From Streptomyces lienomycini (GTDB lineage: Bacteria > Actinomycetota > Actinomycetes > Streptomycetales > Streptomycetaceae), in contig NZ_CP116257.1 in NCBI RefSeq assembly GCF_027947595.1, positions 1,240,001-1,304,000 on the forward strand: 64,000 bases of DNA, written 5' to 3'. The translations under genes and the position numbers were made by a program. Shown one piece after another: positions 13,152-18,328 of the stretch; the stretch's first letter is position 1; every line of letters starts with the position of its first letter. The notes under the pieces were generated by a model. That model saw only the letters and a program-made list of their open reading frames with translations. It was not told where the DNA came from and did not search any database.

Positions 13152-13244
13152 CGCCGCGTGACGCGTGTCGCATTGGTACGACTATCGGTGCGTGCCTGTG
13201 GACAACCGACTCACCCGTCCCGCGAGACCTGGCAGCATGGCGGT

Positions 13245-15449
13245 GTGACAGCAGCAACGCACTCCACCCTCTTCCCGCAGGTACCGGACACGGCCGACGC
13301 GGTGCTCGAAGGGCTCGACCCCGAGCAGCGCGAGGTGGCGACCGCCCTGCGCGGCCCGGTGTGCGTGCTGGCGGGAGCCGGCACGGGCAAGACCCGGGCG
13401 ATCACCCACCGCATCGCCTACGGGGTGCGCGCCGGCATCCTCCAGCCCTCCAGCGTGCTCGCCGTCACCTTCACCAACCGTGCGGCGGGGGAGATGCGCG
13501 GCCGTCTGCGCCAGCTGGGCGCGTCCGGTGTCCAGGCCCGTACCTTCCACTCGGCGGCACTGCGGCAGCTCCAGTACTTCTGGCCGAAAGCGATCGGTGG
13601 CTCCCTGCCGAGGCTCGTCGACCGCAAGATCCAGCTCGTCGCCGACGCGGCCGCCGCCTGCCGCATCCGCCTCGACCGGGGCGAGCTGCGCGACGCCACC
13701 GCGGAGATCGAGTGGTCCAAGGTGACCCAGACCGTCCCGGCCGACTACGCCCTCGCGGCGGCCAAGGCGGGCCGTGACACCCCCCGCGACCCCGCGGAGA
13801 TCGCCCAGCTGTACTCCGCCTACGAGGACCTCAAACGCGCGCGCTCCGTCATCGACTTCGAGGACGTGCTGCTGCTGACCGTGGCCGTGCTCCAGGACCG
13901 GCACGACGTCGCCGAACAGGTCCGGGCCCAGTACCAGCACTTCGTGGTCGACGAGTACCAGGACGTCAGCCCGCTCCAGCAGCGTCTGCTGGAGCTGTGG
14001 CTCGGTGACCGCGACGACCTGTGCGTGGTCGGCGACGCCAGCCAGACGATCTATTCGTTCACGGGAGCAACCCCCGACCACCTGCTCGACTTCCGCGGCC
14101 GCCACCCCGGCGCCACCGTCGTCAAACTCGTCCGCGACTACCGCTCCACCCCCCAGGTGGTCCACCTCGCCAACGGCCTGCTCGCCCAGGCCCGAGGGCG
14201 GGCCGCCGACCACCGCCTGGAGCTGGTCTCCCAGCGCCCCGCGGGCCCCGAACCGGTCTACGGCGAGTACCCCGACGAACCGGCCGAGGCCGAGGGCGCG
14301 GCCCGCCGCATCCGTGAGCTCATCGACTCGGGCGTTCCGGCCGCCGGGATCGCGGTCCTGTTCCGTACCAACTCCCAGTCGGAGACCTACGAGCAAGCAC
14401 TCGCCGACGCCGGTGTCCCCTACCAGCTGCGGGGCGCGGAGCGCTTCTTCGACCGCCCCGAGGTGCGCAAGGCCAACAGCGCCCTGCGCGCCGCGGCGCG
14501 CTTCGGCGGCAACGACTCCCTCCTCGACGACGTGGTCGACCTGCCGTCCCAGGTGCGCGCGGTGCTGTCCGGCGAGGGGTGGACGACTGAGCCCCCGGCC
14601 GGGTCGGGGGCCGTCCGGGAACGCTGGGAGTCGCTGGCCGCCCTGGTCCATCTCGCCCAGGACTTCGCCACCGCCAGAACCGGAGCCACGCTGAGCGATC
14701 TCGTCGTGGAACTCGACGAGCGTGCGGGCGCCCAGCACGCCCCGACGGTGCAGGGCGTCACCCTCGCCTCCCTGCACTCGGCCAAGGGCCTGGAGTGGGA
14801 CGTCGTGTTCCTGGTGGGCGTCGCCGAGGGCATGATGCCGATCACCTACGCAAAGACCGACGAACAGATCGAGGAGGAACGCCGCCTCCTCTACGTCGGC
14901 GTCACCCGCGCGCGAGAACACCTCCATCTGTCCTGGGCGCTGGCCCGGACGCCCGGCGGTCGGCCGAGCCGTCGGCCCAGCCGATTCCTGAAGGGGCTGC
15001 GGCCCGGCTCGGGCACGGCCGACGGGCGGGCGGCCGGCGGCGGCTCCGGAGGTGTGGAGCGTGGGTTCGCGGGCGGCGGCGGCGCCGTGGCCGCCGTTCC
15101 GAGACGGACACAGCGGACGCCCGCCCGCTGCCGCGTCTGCGGGCGCACGCTCACCGACGCAGGCGAGATGAAACTGATGCGCTGCGAGGACTGCCCGTCC
15201 GACATGGACGAGGGCGTCTACGAGCGGCTGCGCGAGTGGCGCGCGGTGCAGGCGGGGCGCAGCGGACAGCCCGCGTTCTGCGTCTTCACCGACAAGACAC
15301 TGATGGCGATCGCCGAGTCCGTCCCCGAGGACGAGCGTGAACTGGCCCGGATCCCAGGGGTCGGGGCGCGCAAGCTCAACCGCTACGGAGTCGACGTCCT
15401 GGCCATCTGCGCAGGCCAGGAAGGGGTGGGGCTTGACGAGGACGACTGA
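13245..15449 (+). CDS. uvrD2: UvrD2-type superfamily 1 DNA helicase
   Basis: A 734-residue 3'-5' helicase. Walker A is GAGTGKT at residues 44-50, then VTFTNRAAGEMRGRL, VVDEYQDVSPLQQ, VVGDASQTIYSFTG, LHSAKGLEWDVVF and LLYVGVTRARE. The C-terminus carries a tetracysteine motif (CRVCGRTL ... MRCEDCPSD) and an HRDC domain (FCVFTDKTLMAIAESVP ... IPGVGARKLNRYG). ATPase + tetracysteine + HRDC is the UvrD2 architecture known from mycobacteria, distinct from UvrD1. Role from family: unwinding in DNA repair, essential in some mycobacteria. Start GTG 13245 begins VTAATHSTLF; upstream in-frame codons lack a ribosome site. It is the third UvrD-like motor within 13 kb. Confidence 0.92.
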   Translation: MTAATHSTLFPQVPDTADAVLEGLDPEQREVATALRGPVCVLAGAGTGKTRAITHRIAYGVRAGILQPSSVLAVTFTNRAAGEMRGRLRQLGASGVQARTFHSAALRQLQYFWPKAIGGSLPRLVDRKIQLVADAAAACRIRLDRGELRDATAEIEWSKVTQTVPADYALAAAKAGRDTPRDPAEIAQLYSAYEDLKRARSVIDFEDVLLLTVAVLQDRHDVAEQVRAQYQHFVVDEYQDVSPLQQRLLELWLGDRDDLCVVGDASQTIYSFTGATPDHLLDFRGRHPGATVVKLVRDYRSTPQVVHLANGLLAQARGRAADHRLELVSQRPAGPEPVYGEYPDEPAEAEGAARRIRELIDSGVPAAGIAVLFRTNSQSETYEQALADAGVPYQLRGAERFFDRPEVRKANSALRAAARFGGNDSLLDDVVDLPSQVRAVLSGEGWTTEPPAGSGAVRERWESLAALVHLAQDFATARTGATLSDLVVELDERAGAQHAPTVQGVTLASLHSAKGLEWDVVFLVGVAEGMMPITYAKTDEQIEEERRLLYVGVTRAREHLHLSWALARTPGGRPSRRPSRFLKGLRPGSGTADGRAAGGGSGGVERGFAGGGGAVAAVPRRTQRTPARCRVCGRTLTDAGEMKLMRCEDCPSDMDEGVYERLREWRAVQAGRSGQPAFCVFTDKTLMAIAESVPEDERELARIPGVGARKLNRYGVDVLAICAGQEGVGLDEDD

Positions 15450-15472
15450 TACGAACTCGTCGAAAAAATAGT

Positions 15473-15502
15473 TTGCGCATGCCCCGGGAATCCCCATAGG
15501 TT
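15473..15502 (+). promoter_or_regulatory. wblC promoter with AT-rich element (WblC autoactivation type)
   Basis: -35 TTGCGC (15473-15478), an 18-base spacer and -10 TAGGTT (15497-15502). Directly upstream of the -35 is an A/T run (aaaaaatag, 15463-15471), rare in this GC-rich DNA. Known WhiB7/WblC-dependent promoters have an AT-rich block just upstream of the -35 that is bound by the AT-hook. The start point should be near 15509, giving wblC a leader of about 610 bases. Confidence 0.75.
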
Positions 15503-15613
15503 CTTGGTCACGGGGACAGCGGCCTTCCCGGAGGCCCTGAATCCGTGTTGTACTTGCATATCCGCGGACTGGTTCACCCCAGTCCCCCGAGACGCCGAGA
15601 GGAGGCGAGTCCA

Positions 15614-15946
15614 GTGATCAGCATCAACATCAGCTCAAACGTCAGCTCCACCGCCAAACTGACCGATCGCTCGGCCGTCTCCCTGTGCACGCTCGGCGCC
15701 TCCAACTCGGGCACCGGTCTGTCCGGCATTCGTGTCGTGCGTCCGGCCGCCGCCTCCGCCGCTCCCGCGGGTCTTCCCGTTCGTGAGCGCGATGAGCGAC
15801 CGACCAAGGCACTGGAAGCAGCAGTAGCGGCACAGGCGCAGGCCTATGCCTTTACCGCGACCGGTGCCGGATTCCGGAAGCAGACGACGCAGCATCACCT
15901 GATGTGGGCCTTCCGTGGGCCAGAACCCTGGAGTGATCCAGCCTGA
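15614..15946 (+). CDS. Leader ORF upstream of wblC (110 aa), candidate attenuation uORF
   Basis: GTG 15614 has GGAGG 9 bases upstream and opens a 110-codon frame beginning MISINISSNVSS. An earlier in-frame GTG at 15545 also has GGAGG. The middle is Ala-rich with no domain I recognise. It ends MWAFRGPEPWSDPA, and an internal ATG at 15902 would give just this 14-residue peptide, but that ATG has no visible ribosome site. The stop codon (15944-15946) lies in a perfect 8-bp hairpin (15941-15959), 24 bases before the attenuator stem. The position, inside the wblC transcript leader, suggests its translation sets the fate of the terminator, as described for whiB7/wblC leaders. Whether the peptide has any function of its own is unknown. 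Confidence 0.7.
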   Translation: MISINISSNVSSTAKLTDRSAVSLCTLGASNSGTGLSGIRVVRPAAASAAPAGLPVRERDERPTKALEAAVAAQAQAYAFTATGAGFRKQTTQHHLMWAFRGPEPWSDPA

Positions 15947-15970
15947 TCGTCGATCAGGCCGGCGCCTTCA

Positions 15971-16012
15971 GGGCCGCGGAACCCCACCCGGGATCCGCGG
16001 CCCTTCTGTTTG
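15971..16012 (+). terminator. Intrinsic terminator in the wblC leader (attenuator)
   Basis: A perfect 10-bp stem (gggccgcgga at 15971-15980 with 15994-16003) and 13-base loop are followed by ttctgtttg (16004-16012), a U-rich tail unusual in this genome. It lies between the leader ORF stop (15946) and the wblC start (16122), so it would end transcription before wblC unless antitermination occurs. Confidence 0.8.
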
Positions 16013-16121
16013 TCCCCGAACGGGGGCGACAGCACGAAGGAGCCTCGGGACAAGAAAAGAACCCGGTACCAAGCCGACACCCGGTCAACCGGCCGGAACG
16101 ACCAGACGAGGAAGACCACCC

Positions 16122-16490
16122 GTGCAACTCGAAGCGCACGCCCCGTCCGTACCGCCTTCCGACACGATCCCCAAGCCCTGTTCCACGGAGGACTCCACCT
16201 TGACCCCGCTCACCGCGCTCACCGCGCTCGACGACGCCATCGAGAACCTCGGCGTACCCGTCCCCTGCCGCTCCTACGACCCGGAGGTCTTCTTCGCGGA
16301 GTCGCCGGCGGACGTGGAGTACGCCAAGTCCCTGTGCCGCACCTGCCCGCTGATCGAGGCCTGCCTCGCCGGTGCCAAGGAGCGGCGTGAGCCCTGGGGC
16401 GTCTGGGGTGGAGAGCTGTTCGTCCAGGGTGTCGTCGTCGCCCGGAAGCGGCCCCGTGGTCGCCCGCGCAAGAACCCGGTTTCGGCATGA
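16122..16490 (+). CDS. wblC: WhiB7/WblC family iron-sulfur transcriptional regulator
   Basis: A 122-residue Wbl protein. Four Fe-S cysteines are visible (PCRSYDPEVFF; SLCRTCPLIEACLAG), then the GVWGG turn (EPWGVWGGELF) that contacts the sigma factor. The C-terminal AT-hook PRGRPRKN is the mark of WhiB7/WblC among Wbl paralogues. It activates intrinsic antibiotic-resistance genes together with the principal sigma factor when ribosome-targeting drugs are present. Start GTG 16122 has GAGGAAG 7 bases upstream; earlier in-frame codons run through the attenuator. Control is likely autoactivation at 15473-15502 plus leader attenuation. The next gene overlaps by 4 bases (ATGA). Confidence 0.95.
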   Translation: MQLEAHAPSVPPSDTIPKPCSTEDSTLTPLTALTALDDAIENLGVPVPCRSYDPEVFFAESPADVEYAKSLCRTCPLIEACLAGAKERREPWGVWGGELFVQGVVVARKRPRGRPRKNPVSA

Positions 16491-16810
16491 ACACCGCAGG
16501 AACGATCGACCGTCCCCTCACGTACGACCCCCAGAAGCAGGCCCCGATGAAGCCGTCCACCCACGACATCGCAGGCACCGCGCCTGAAGACTTCACCACC
16601 AGTGGCGCGAAGGACTCGCGTCAGAACAGGACCCGTGAGATGCAACTCATCCCAGAAGCCCTGGCTCGTGCGCATATGCACGACCGCCTGCATGAGGCCG
16701 AGCAGGAACGCCGGGCGCTGCGCGTGGCGACCGCTCGCCGGATGCAGCGGCGGGCGGAGCGCGCCTCGATGCGCGCCCGGCGTGCGCTCGCCATGGCGGT
16801 CATGCAGTAA
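16487..16810 (+). CDS. Small basic hypothetical protein cotranscribed with wblC
   Basis: A 107-residue protein starting at ATG 16487, which overlaps the wblC stop (ATGA), so translational coupling is likely. The N-terminal half is polar and probably disordered (TIDRPLTYDPQKQAP). The C-terminal half is a strongly basic helix (RLHEAEQERRALRVATARRMQRRAERASMRARRALAMAVMQ in register), suggesting nucleic-acid or membrane-surface binding. No domain is recognised. Its place behind wblC suggests induction by the same antibiotic stress. The gene ends before a strong bidirectional hairpin. Confidence 0.75.
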   Translation: MNTAGTIDRPLTYDPQKQAPMKPSTHDIAGTAPEDFTTSGAKDSRQNRTREMQLIPEALARAHMHDRLHEAEQERRALRVATARRMQRRAERASMRARRALAMAVMQ

Positions 16811-16861
16811 CCGACACACCTGAAGCGGTGGTCTCCCGGCCCGGGAGACGAAGCTCTGCCC

Positions 16862-16897
16862 GTGGGGGCCGGTCCGTCCGAACGGACCGGCCCCCAC
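16862..16897. terminator. Bidirectional hairpin terminator after the wblC operon
   Basis: A perfect 16-bp stem (16862-16877 with 16882-16897) and 4-base loop lie between convergent transcription units. Confidence 0.85.
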
Positions 16898-16918
16898 CGT
16901 GGGTTCGGGGCCGGTGGA

Positions 16919-18328
16919 TCACGCCTCCGCGGCCGTCTCCTCCACCTCGTACCCGTCCTCGCCCTCTTCGGTGGCCTCTTCGTCCACCGCCTCCTCCTCG
17001 GGGAGGAACCCCACCAGCCACTCCTCCAGCTCGTCACGCAGCCGCACCGTCGCCCCCAGCTGGCACAACACACCGATGGTGCTCAGGGTCACCCGGTGAA
17101 TCAGCAGGTAGGCAGGGGGCAGATTGAGCTGCTTGGCCAGCTGGTAGGCGGGGGAGCGGGGATCACCGATGCGGGCGGCCTGGCTCCGCATCCAGCCACG
17201 GGTGAAGGTGAACGCGTCGACCCTGGCGGGCTCGATGATCGGCAGGAGGTAGTCGAGGACGGCATCAGGGTCCAGCTCTATCGACTCCTTGACGAAGCCC
17301 TCCGCGCAGAGCATCTCGTAGACGGCGTCCGCCTCGCCGTCCAGCGTCATGCGCAGAGCCTCGCCGATGGGCTCGGGCAGACCGCCGGGGAGGCGGTCGA
17401 CCGTGCCGAAGTCAAGGACACCCAAACGCCAGTCGTCCTCGCCCGCCGGGCCGCCGGGCAGCAGGCGGAAGTTGCCGGGGTGGGGGTCCGCGTGCAGAAG
17501 CCCCGTGCGGGCCGGACCGGAGAAGAGGAAGTGGGCCAGCAGCTGACCGGCCCGGTCGCGCTGCTCCGTCGTGCCGTTCGTGATGATCTCCGACATCGGG
17601 ATGCCGTCGATCCACTCGGTGACCAGCACCTGCTCGCACTGGTGGACGACATCAGGCACCACGATGTCCGGGTCGTCCGCGAACACCTCGGCGTGAATCC
17701 GCTGGGCCTCGGCCTCCAGGTCGTAGTCCAGCTCCTCCGAGACCCGGTCCTTCAGCTCCGTGATCAACGGCTTGATGTCCATGCCCGGGACCAGTGGGCC
17801 GAGCAGCCGGGCGAAGCGGCTGAGCTGGTTCAGGTCGGACAGCAGTGCCTCGCCGGCCCCCGGATACTGCACCTTGACCGCCACCTCGCGGCCGTCGTGC
17901 CACACCGCCCGGTGCACCTGACCGATCGAGGCCGCTGCGGCGGGCCTGTCCTCGAACTCCAGGAACAGATCCTGCCAGTCCTCACCGAGGCGCTCCGCGA
18001 GCACGGAGTGCACCGTGCGCGTCGGCATCGGCGGTGCCGCCTCCTGCAGCTTGGTCAGCGCCGCCCGATAGGGGCCGGCTACCTCCTCGGGCAGCGCCGA
18101 CTCGAAGACGGACAGAGCCTGCCCGAACTTCATCGCCCCGCCCTTGAGCTCGCCCAGCACCTTGAACAGCTGGTCCGCGGTGCGCTGCTGCAACTGCTGA
18201 CCGACGATCTCCGCGGACTCGCCCACGATCCGTTTGCCGAGCCCCCAGGTGGCCCGCCCGGCGAAGCCGAGCGGGAGCGCGGCGAGCTTGGCGGTCCGGG
18301 TGACCGCCTTGCGCGGAAGATCAGACAT
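16919..18328 (-). CDS. ABC1/AarF/UbiB-family atypical kinase
   Basis: A 469-residue protein with all the ABC1 signatures: KxGQ motif in MKFGQALSVFES, an Ala-rich loop AAASIGQVHRA, the Lys in EVAVKVQYPG, HADPHPGNF as catalytic loop and LDFGTVDRL as metal loop. The family has a kinase-like fold with ATPase activity linked to isoprenoid lipid and quinone metabolism at the membrane. The C-terminus is acidic (EEEAVDEEATEEGED). Start ATG 18328 has GGAGG upstream and overlaps the end of the ThiF-like gene by 8 bases, so the two are translationally coupled. The substrate is not known from sequence. Streptomyces use menaquinone, so a quinone link is possible but unproven. Confidence 0.9.
   Translation of the reverse strand: MSDLPRKAVTRTAKLAALPLGFAGRATWGLGKRIVGESAEIVGQQLQQRTADQLFKVLGELKGGAMKFGQALSVFESALPEEVAGPYRAALTKLQEAAPPMPTRTVHSVLAERLGEDWQDLFLEFEDRPAAAASIGQVHRAVWHDGREVAVKVQYPGAGEALLSDLNQLSRFARLLGPLVPGMDIKPLITELKDRVSEELDYDLEAEAQRIHAEVFADDPDIVVPDVVHQCEQVLVTEWIDGIPMSEIITNGTTEQRDRAGQLLAHFLFSGPARTGLLHADPHPGNFRLLPGGPAGEDDWRLGVLDFGTVDRLPGGLPEPIGEALRMTLDGEADAVYEMLCAEGFVKESIELDPDAVLDYLLPIIEPARVDAFTFTRGWMRSQAARIGDPRSPAYQLAKQLNLPPAYLLIHRVTLSTIGVLCQLGATVRLRDELEEWLVGFLPEEEAVDEEATEEGEDGYEVEETAAEA

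Follow-up and report, generated by a model that had tools for sequence, protein, structure and literature searches.

The leader between a helicase gene and wblC in this 7.86-Mb single-contig Streptomyces genome is very probably a transcription attenuator of the whiB7/wblC type, in which an upstream open reading frame (uORF) would govern the choice between a terminator and an antiterminator. A preliminary description of this DNA had claimed a translation-dependent attenuator before wblC, and that claim is supported by the anatomy of the leader, by comparative pairing and by the published whiB7/wblC mechanism. The core of the mechanism is already known. uORF-mediated attenuation of whiB7/wblC was reported by Lee, Lee and Roe (2022, Mol Microbiol 117:179), which we cite through later papers, and the behavior of the attenuator is described in PMC11550727, PMC10727445, PMC13393426 and PMC12421871; in the portions of these papers available to us, the published system agrees with the present leader in the gene, the uORF, the Rho-independent terminator, the antiterminator formed by uORF and terminator, and induction by translation stress, with no difference in the core. 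According to the same kind of excerpts, relatives are induced by ribosome drugs and amino acid starvation (PMC11550727, PMC12421871, PMC12121999, PMC13393426), a uORF and terminator occur in mycobacteria (Dinan 2014, PMC4128351), and drug-induced stalling within the whiB7 uORF was stated in 2025 to have been previously untested (PMC12121999).

Coordinates refer to the window, the whole stretch of 64,000 nucleotides that was analysed, and the leader features and wblC lie on its plus strand. The leader follows a UvrD/PcrA-like helicase gene (13158-15449), which matched helicase families with scores below the curated cut-offs, and, as in the published attenuator, it precedes a whiB7/wblC orthologue. 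This regulated gene, wblC (16122..16490), begins with GTG and encodes 122 aa. The Wbl domain PF02467 was found at its genome position above the cut-off (E 5.1e-14), and the C-terminus contains RGRPRK, which we take to be a mark of WhiB7; the protein had no NCBIfam match, and it was present in 197/197 genomes of the order (best E <= 1.1e-36). Four-fold diversity is low (0.15) over wblC codons 1-30 (16122-16211). A 107-codon ORF (16487-16810), without an NCBIfam match, starts at ATG 16487 and overlaps the wblC stop by 4 bases (ATGA), which suggests coupled translation.

For comparison, leaders were collected from named Streptomyces loci (the best 80 of 568 confirmed) and from genomes of the order and class. 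wblC could be placed at 227 loci, 133 from the same genus (the window's own included) and 94 from outside it. The same-genus subsets comprised 131 leaders matching the terminator stem pattern given below, 125 of them distinct, 126 distinct leaders for promoter and leader columns, and 100 non-redundant leaders for pairing. Alignment A1 held 59 leaders: 18 chosen from the genus plus every second other leader passing the filter (41 rows). Our uORF script returned a candidate with some Shine-Dalgarno (SD) sequence in 218/220 leaders; it missed L174 and L175 and picked out an incorrect short ORF in L173, yet in all three a long ORF that ends as expected can be seen. Outside the genus, a uORF with a strong SD was found in 84/89 stem-matching leaders.

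The promoter (15463..15502) consists of an A-rich block (15463-15469), a -35 element TTGCGC (15473-15478) and a -10 element TAGGTT (15497-15502) separated by a spacer of 18 nt, and the transcript probably starts near 15509. All elements of the promoter described earlier, including the AT-rich block against the -35, were found in their places. Positions 15464-15469 agree at 5/6 bases with the WblC box GAAAWY, a consensus taken from a figure legend in PMC7157823, and lie exactly 3 nt before the -35. Both the -35 and the CATAG columns are conserved across the 126 distinct same-genus leaders. Simple consensus scans listed neither the promoter nor the terminator of the wblC leader. The 5' end of the transcript forms a hairpin of 15 pairs (P1, 15509..15547). 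Across 100 leaders, 87-94% of its pairings are standard, and sliding the arms lowers this to 21-61%; double changes occur at 10 of its pairs, a figure that can also be attained after sliding. The adjoining UGUACUU (15549-15555) is strongly conserved in the 126 distinct leaders, and no predicted helix accounts for it.

The uORF (15614..15946) runs from a GTG start through 110 codons to a TGA stop at 15944-15946, and is preceded by the SD AGGAGG (15600..15605). An SD-preceded uORF of 90-129 codons was present in 131/131 same-genus leaders, starting with GTG in 123 and ATG in 8, and the sequence AGAGGAGGCGA was found at its SD in at least 122/131. The tail reads MWAFRGPEPWSDPA, just as the preliminary description had it, and its form WxxRGxxxWxxxx recurs in 131/131. 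An alternative start at GTG 15545 was rejected: the frame is open for 23 codons upstream in 113/131 leaders and closed in 18.

The uORF ends shortly before an intrinsic terminator (15970..16011), a 14-bp stem (15970-16004) followed by a U-rich tail, as in the published attenuator, and a hairpin over the uORF stop codon (15938..15962), which had been noted before and is indeed present, forms the antiterminator core. The U-tailed terminator before wblC was thus read correctly from the sequence; its stem is one of 11+3 bp, not the 10 bp first given. An early custom terminator finder returned nothing in the window's own leader nor in many relatives, and the stem pattern GCC[GA]CGG..CCG[CT]GGC was used instead. 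It matched 220/227 loci, 131/133 in the genus and 89/94 outside. The misses were L085 and L156 in the genus, where uORF tails were seen although the pattern fails, and L181, L206, L209, L219 and L224, among which the early custom finder recovered a variant stem in L181 and L219. All 131 stem-matching same-genus leaders also carry the ORF tail, and the comparison of leaders that the preliminary description had proposed thus finds tail and terminator conserved together in 131/133; judged from these sequences, the co-occurrence appears to be more than chance.

Comparative pairing supports a Rho-independent terminator between the uORF and wblC. The terminator and the stop hairpin have 99.0% standard pairs in 100 same-genus leaders, against 23-50% when slid. 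Across the class (A1, 59 leaders), the terminator keeps 94.9% standard pairs and shows double changes at 6/14 pairs; none of 500 shuffles scored as high on four of five measures, the doubly changed pairs included, and 3/500 did so on the fifth. The stem sequence itself, GGCCGCGGA..UCCGCGGCC (15970-16004), is nearly invariant class-wide, beyond what pairing needs, and seven leaders (L196, L208, L213, L225, L226, L228 and L235) carry GGCCACGG..CCGUGGCC, with both arms changed. Spacing is conserved as well: in 98% of 83 outside-genus leaders, a set pre-filtered to stop-stem gaps of 5-45 nt (85/87 pass a similar filter), 17-32 nt separate the uORF stop from the stem, a distance seen for 36% of 260 any-frame stop triplets within 200 nt.

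The competing structure, an antiterminator, would pair a 5' strand in the conserved uORF tail (15904..15935, codons 97-108) with a 3' strand (15965..15987) that overlaps the terminator 5' arm (15970-15984). When the terminator 3' arm is absent, RNA 15902-15990 folds with the uORF tail paired to the terminator 5' arm, so that the predicted antiterminator overlaps both uORF and terminator, the arrangement of the published whiB7/wblC attenuator at the level of structure. Its 32 pairs are 97.1% standard in the 100 non-redundant same-genus leaders, compared with 33-53% when slid. A common version, derived from the 41 outside-genus rows and evaluated on A1, has 74.4% standard pairs against 25-55% slid and a covariation of 0.207 against 0.158 in shuffles (0/500 as high); its number of doubly changed pairs is unexceptional, being reached by 119/500 shuffles.

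Given the spacing, the conserved parts and the competition between two structures, we infer that the leader switches in this strain. RNA polymerase would start near 15509 and ribosomes would load on the uORF. A ribosome following closely and standing at the uORF end would cover the tail as the terminator 5' arm emerges; no antiterminator could form, the terminator would fold and transcription would end near 16010. With ribosomes slow, absent or stalled anywhere upstream, by a drug or a missing aminoacyl-tRNA, the free tail RNA would anneal to the terminator 5' arm while the 3' arm is still to be transcribed, and polymerase would read into wblC, whose product would then activate its own promoter. 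We folded the growing RNA from 15640 or 15600 onward, that is, part of the leader, with assumed ribosome footprints. In this model, RNA 3' ends at 15984-15996 gave the full antiterminator if the uORF carried no ribosome or one stalled near codon 13; masking by a ribosome over the stop (15926-15957) or in mid-tail (15899-15930) kept it from forming. Once the stem was complete, the terminator won equilibrium folding in every case, so the switch must be kinetic. Two other types of control were considered and rejected. For a riboswitch or T-box, an Rfam search of 14500-17000 (riboswitches, T-boxes and others) gave no match up to E = 1. For translation attenuation of the erm type, the wblC start is not sequestered: it was unpaired at 0.449 (50 leaders), where 27 window genes gave 0.340 and the uORF 0.174. 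Of all sets compared, the start region of wblC is the most open, the opposite of the uORF.

Beyond this core, we tentatively raise the possibility that the uORF is a universal translation check, in which selection would maintain one codon or more for nearly every amino acid and the start would close after the first ribosome. Starvation for any amino acid, or any ribosome drug, would then stall the reading ribosome before the decision point; a single polymerase-coupled ribosome would judge each transcript, and later ribosomes could not rescue the read-out. A simpler account, which in our judgment comes close to an even chance, competes with this reading and not with the attenuator itself: the leader would be the published attenuator only, its uORF body serving as length, and the full amino-acid set and closed start would be by-products of composition, relatedness and high GC.

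The window uORF encodes all 20 amino acids, Cys (codon 25) and Tyr (codon 78) once each, as do 95/100 non-redundant same-genus leaders against 22% in simulation, although one genus is close to one observation. The 83 leaders outside the genus come from 23 families, one of them the window's own, and 54% encode all 20 against 11% simulated. A stricter test on 18 residues left out Met (start), Trp (dictated by pairing) and the last 12 codons. The outside-genus uORFs lacked 1.12/18 residues, compared with 2.51 in random gene windows (222 genes from 20 stretches and 11 families) and 2.62 in N-terminal windows (111 genes), and none was missing in 45% of them, compared with 12% and 11%. By family, 19/23 and 21/23 fell below the random and N-terminal expectations (Wilcoxon p 9e-5 and 2e-5), p values that serve as guides since families are not independent draws. 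With uORF composition fixed from other families, 2.15 residues were expected missing and 16% of uORFs were expected to miss none; 16/23 families were below expectation (p = 0.010, likewise a guide), which speaks against composition as the whole explanation. Observed against expected absences were 22/37.5 for Cys, 13/29.4 for Tyr, 7/23.0 for His, 10/15.7 for Asn, 3/17.0 for Lys, 5/13.8 for Phe, 4/11.3 for Ile, 8/8.4 for Gln, 4/6.4 for Asp, 12/9.1 for Glu and 3/1.4 for Leu; for Cys, Tyr, His, Lys, Phe and Ile, absences were 0.18-0.59 of the pooled-composition prediction, again a difficulty for the by-product account. Mean frequencies of rare residues are hardly raised (Cys 1.03% vs 0.83%, Tyr 1.37% vs 1.95%), so the signal is one of each and not enrichment. 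The first Cys outside the genus falls anywhere from residue 2 to 113 with no fixed place, as a sampler predicts; in the genus, codon 25 is Cys in 119/125 leaders and both its neighbours vary. On the side of the simpler account, 40 small ORFs of roughly similar, unmatched length, some of which may be non-genes, missed 1.27/18 residues, and 35% missed none. The uORF thus tends to encode all 20 amino acids, as if it were to sample every aminoacyl-tRNA.

The second element of the universal check is RNA structure within the uORF. In the same 131 leaders, four-fold diversity was 0.452 over 210 columns of the helicase gene, 0.245 over 86 columns of wblC and 0.194 over 81 columns of the uORF, whose codons 41-60 are its least constrained (0.33-0.37). 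A consensus fold of 15509-15962 contained three elements: the hairpin at the 5' end, a stem that closes the start of the uORF, and a hairpin in the middle of the ORF. In the closing stem (P2, 15588..15703), the SD and uORF start pair with the uORF's own codons 17-30 through an outer helix (15588-15599 x 15692-15703), an SD helix (15601-15607 x 15676-15682) and a start helix (15611-15621 x 15663-15674). Standard pairs make up 88, 99 and 90% of these helices (34-47, 45-83 and 15-32% when slid), and double changes occur at 4, 0 and 5 pairs; the outer helix has no more of them than slid versions, a point in favor of the by-product account. The stretch CGCCGAGAGGAGGCG (15592-15606) could alternatively fold on itself into a short hairpin whose loop and 3' arm take in part of the SD. 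The mid-uORF hairpin (P3, 15808..15868, 22 pairs) has two parts with 96 and 92% standard pairs (16-51 and 36-53% slid) and double changes at 4 and 6 pairs (0-3 and 4-8 slid), the inner part again no more than slid; synonymous recodings of it are less stable, the mean z being -1.39 and 43% of the 100 leaders reaching the 5% level. Codons 61-66 (E-R-P-T-K-A), GAGCGACCGACCAAGGCA (15794-15811), hardly vary in their bases within the genus, and eight leaders from a single other family carry GEVRP[QK]A 28-30 codons ahead of the stop.

APC-corrected mutual information gave top pairs that mostly join far-apart columns with non-pairing bases, which we read as reflecting two clades. Ten of the top 500 pairs fell in proposed helices, against 1.3 expected by proportion. 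No pair of the P2 outer or SD helix was in the top 2000, and the start helix ranked 1418 and 1917, which again favors the by-product account. Synonymous recoding of codons 2-36 (25 recodings each, kinship among leaders uncorrected) points the other way, as it opens the start in the genus and not in control genes. In 50 of the 100 same-genus leaders, the SD and start were unpaired at 0.174 natively and 0.345 after recoding (0.351 with genomic codon usage), and 72% lay at the 5% level or lower. The values for 82 outside-genus leaders were 0.271 and 0.335, with 24% at that level. The 27 window genes gave 0.340 against 0.332 (7% at the 5% level), and the 50 wblC starts rose from 0.449 to 0.521 (22%), being open yet showing some effect. 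In these folding models, the uORF start is thus predicted to be closed by its own codons 17-30 beyond what synonymous recoding gives. Such a start would be open during RNA synthesis and would close behind the first ribosome.

How the conserved tail acts bears on a further alternative. W98, A99, R101, G102, P105 and W106 are invariant in the 125 distinct same-genus leaders, as would be expected if the nascent MWAFRGPEPW were a Trp/Pro-rich arrest peptide that stalls ribosomes near the uORF end and sets the switch. The residues differ between families (MWAFRGPEPWSDPA, ..RAWSPPV, ..RTWGPPV; outside the genus often ..R-A/S/T-W-S/G-P-P-V) and much of the pairing is kept, so the conservation of the tail is, as far as sequence comparison can tell, first of all that of RNA in antiterminator pairing. 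Moreover, a ribosome on the tail masks the antiterminator in the folding model, which would give termination, not induction. We therefore consider an arrest peptide unlikely, and the earlier suggestion that a Trp/Pro-rich end tunes stalling has lost ground to antiterminator pairing. In the genus, 97% of 131 native tails paired better than 95% of their codon-shuffled versions, as did 47% of 85 tails from outside it. Synonym choice in the tail against the terminator arm showed no same-genus excess (5% of 131 at the 5% level) and a weak effect outside (15% of 85 leaders). Together, these tests indicate that what fixes tail pairing is which residues the tail has and in what order, and not the choice among synonyms.

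It is somewhat less probable still that the uORF protein works in trans with the attenuator as a secondary feature. The uORF is annotated as a hypothetical protein in many genomes, and its mean residue conservation in the genus is 0.77. Among the 120 listed of its 1307 homologues, however, names were hypothetical or uncharacterized protein or absent, and none had a Pfam domain; the product had no NCBIfam match. The 83 leaders outside the genus vary in sequence and in length (43-202 codons, median 85), and four-fold sites are constrained relative to the preceding gene (0.194 vs 0.452), a constraint that a protein alone leaves unexplained. Finally, a 14-codon sensor from ATG 15902, one of the two ORFs offered in the preliminary description, is highly improbable: its Met is kept in 120/125 distinct leaders, but it has no SD, the Met is Thr or Lys in 5/125, and the upstream frame is open from an SD-preceded start over its full 90-129 codons in 131/131. 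The other, the 110-codon ORF from GTG 15614, is on this sequence evidence very probably the sensor, because of its SD-preceded start in all 131 same-genus leaders and the missing SD and replaced Met of the shorter one.

In trp/his-type attenuators, the position of the ribosome on a leader ORF selects terminator or antiterminator, and the leader peptides are short. The wblC leader is alike in that ribosome position would decide between the two structures. It differs in that the 110-residue uORF sequence has no run of one rare amino acid and contains all 20, in that failure anywhere before the tail would induce, and in its much greater length. The uORF attenuators of ARE ABCF genes (lmrC, vmlR, tiaA, are5sc) are also alike, a drug-stalled ribosome on the uORF giving antitermination; as excerpted from PMC12421871, the are5sc and tiaA uORFs, with the products MLV and MVGDDDISG, are very short, and stalling takes place at their start codon, unlike the 110 codons here. 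The E. coli toiL uORF resembles the present one in that one uORF senses several drug classes, a likeness drawn from its description in part of PMC12121999; gene and organism are different. In the literature on whiB7/wblC, represented by titles, abstract openings and excerpts, we found no mention of the all-amino-acid content, the closed uORF start or the invariant stem.

A covariance model of tail and terminator gave one strong match (>= 54.6 bits) per genome in 41/41 relatives; other matches there scored 29-35 bits and were taken as chance. In a phylum sample, 13/119 genomes matched at E 1e-3 with strict filters, and matches outside the class were weak (27-31 bits). One family of the class scored just 28-37 bits at its whiB7 loci, and nothing matched in two members of the class, so that the model performs poorly on distant relatives.

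In actinomycetes, broad intrinsic resistance to antibiotics is under the control of whiB7/wblC. We claim no priority for the all-amino-acid content and closed start, which are the part worth testing. If the reading is true, changing the single Cys codon should abolish the response to cysteine, and a leader that reads every amino acid and admits one ribosome could sense many drugs and starvation without a drug-specific arrest site.
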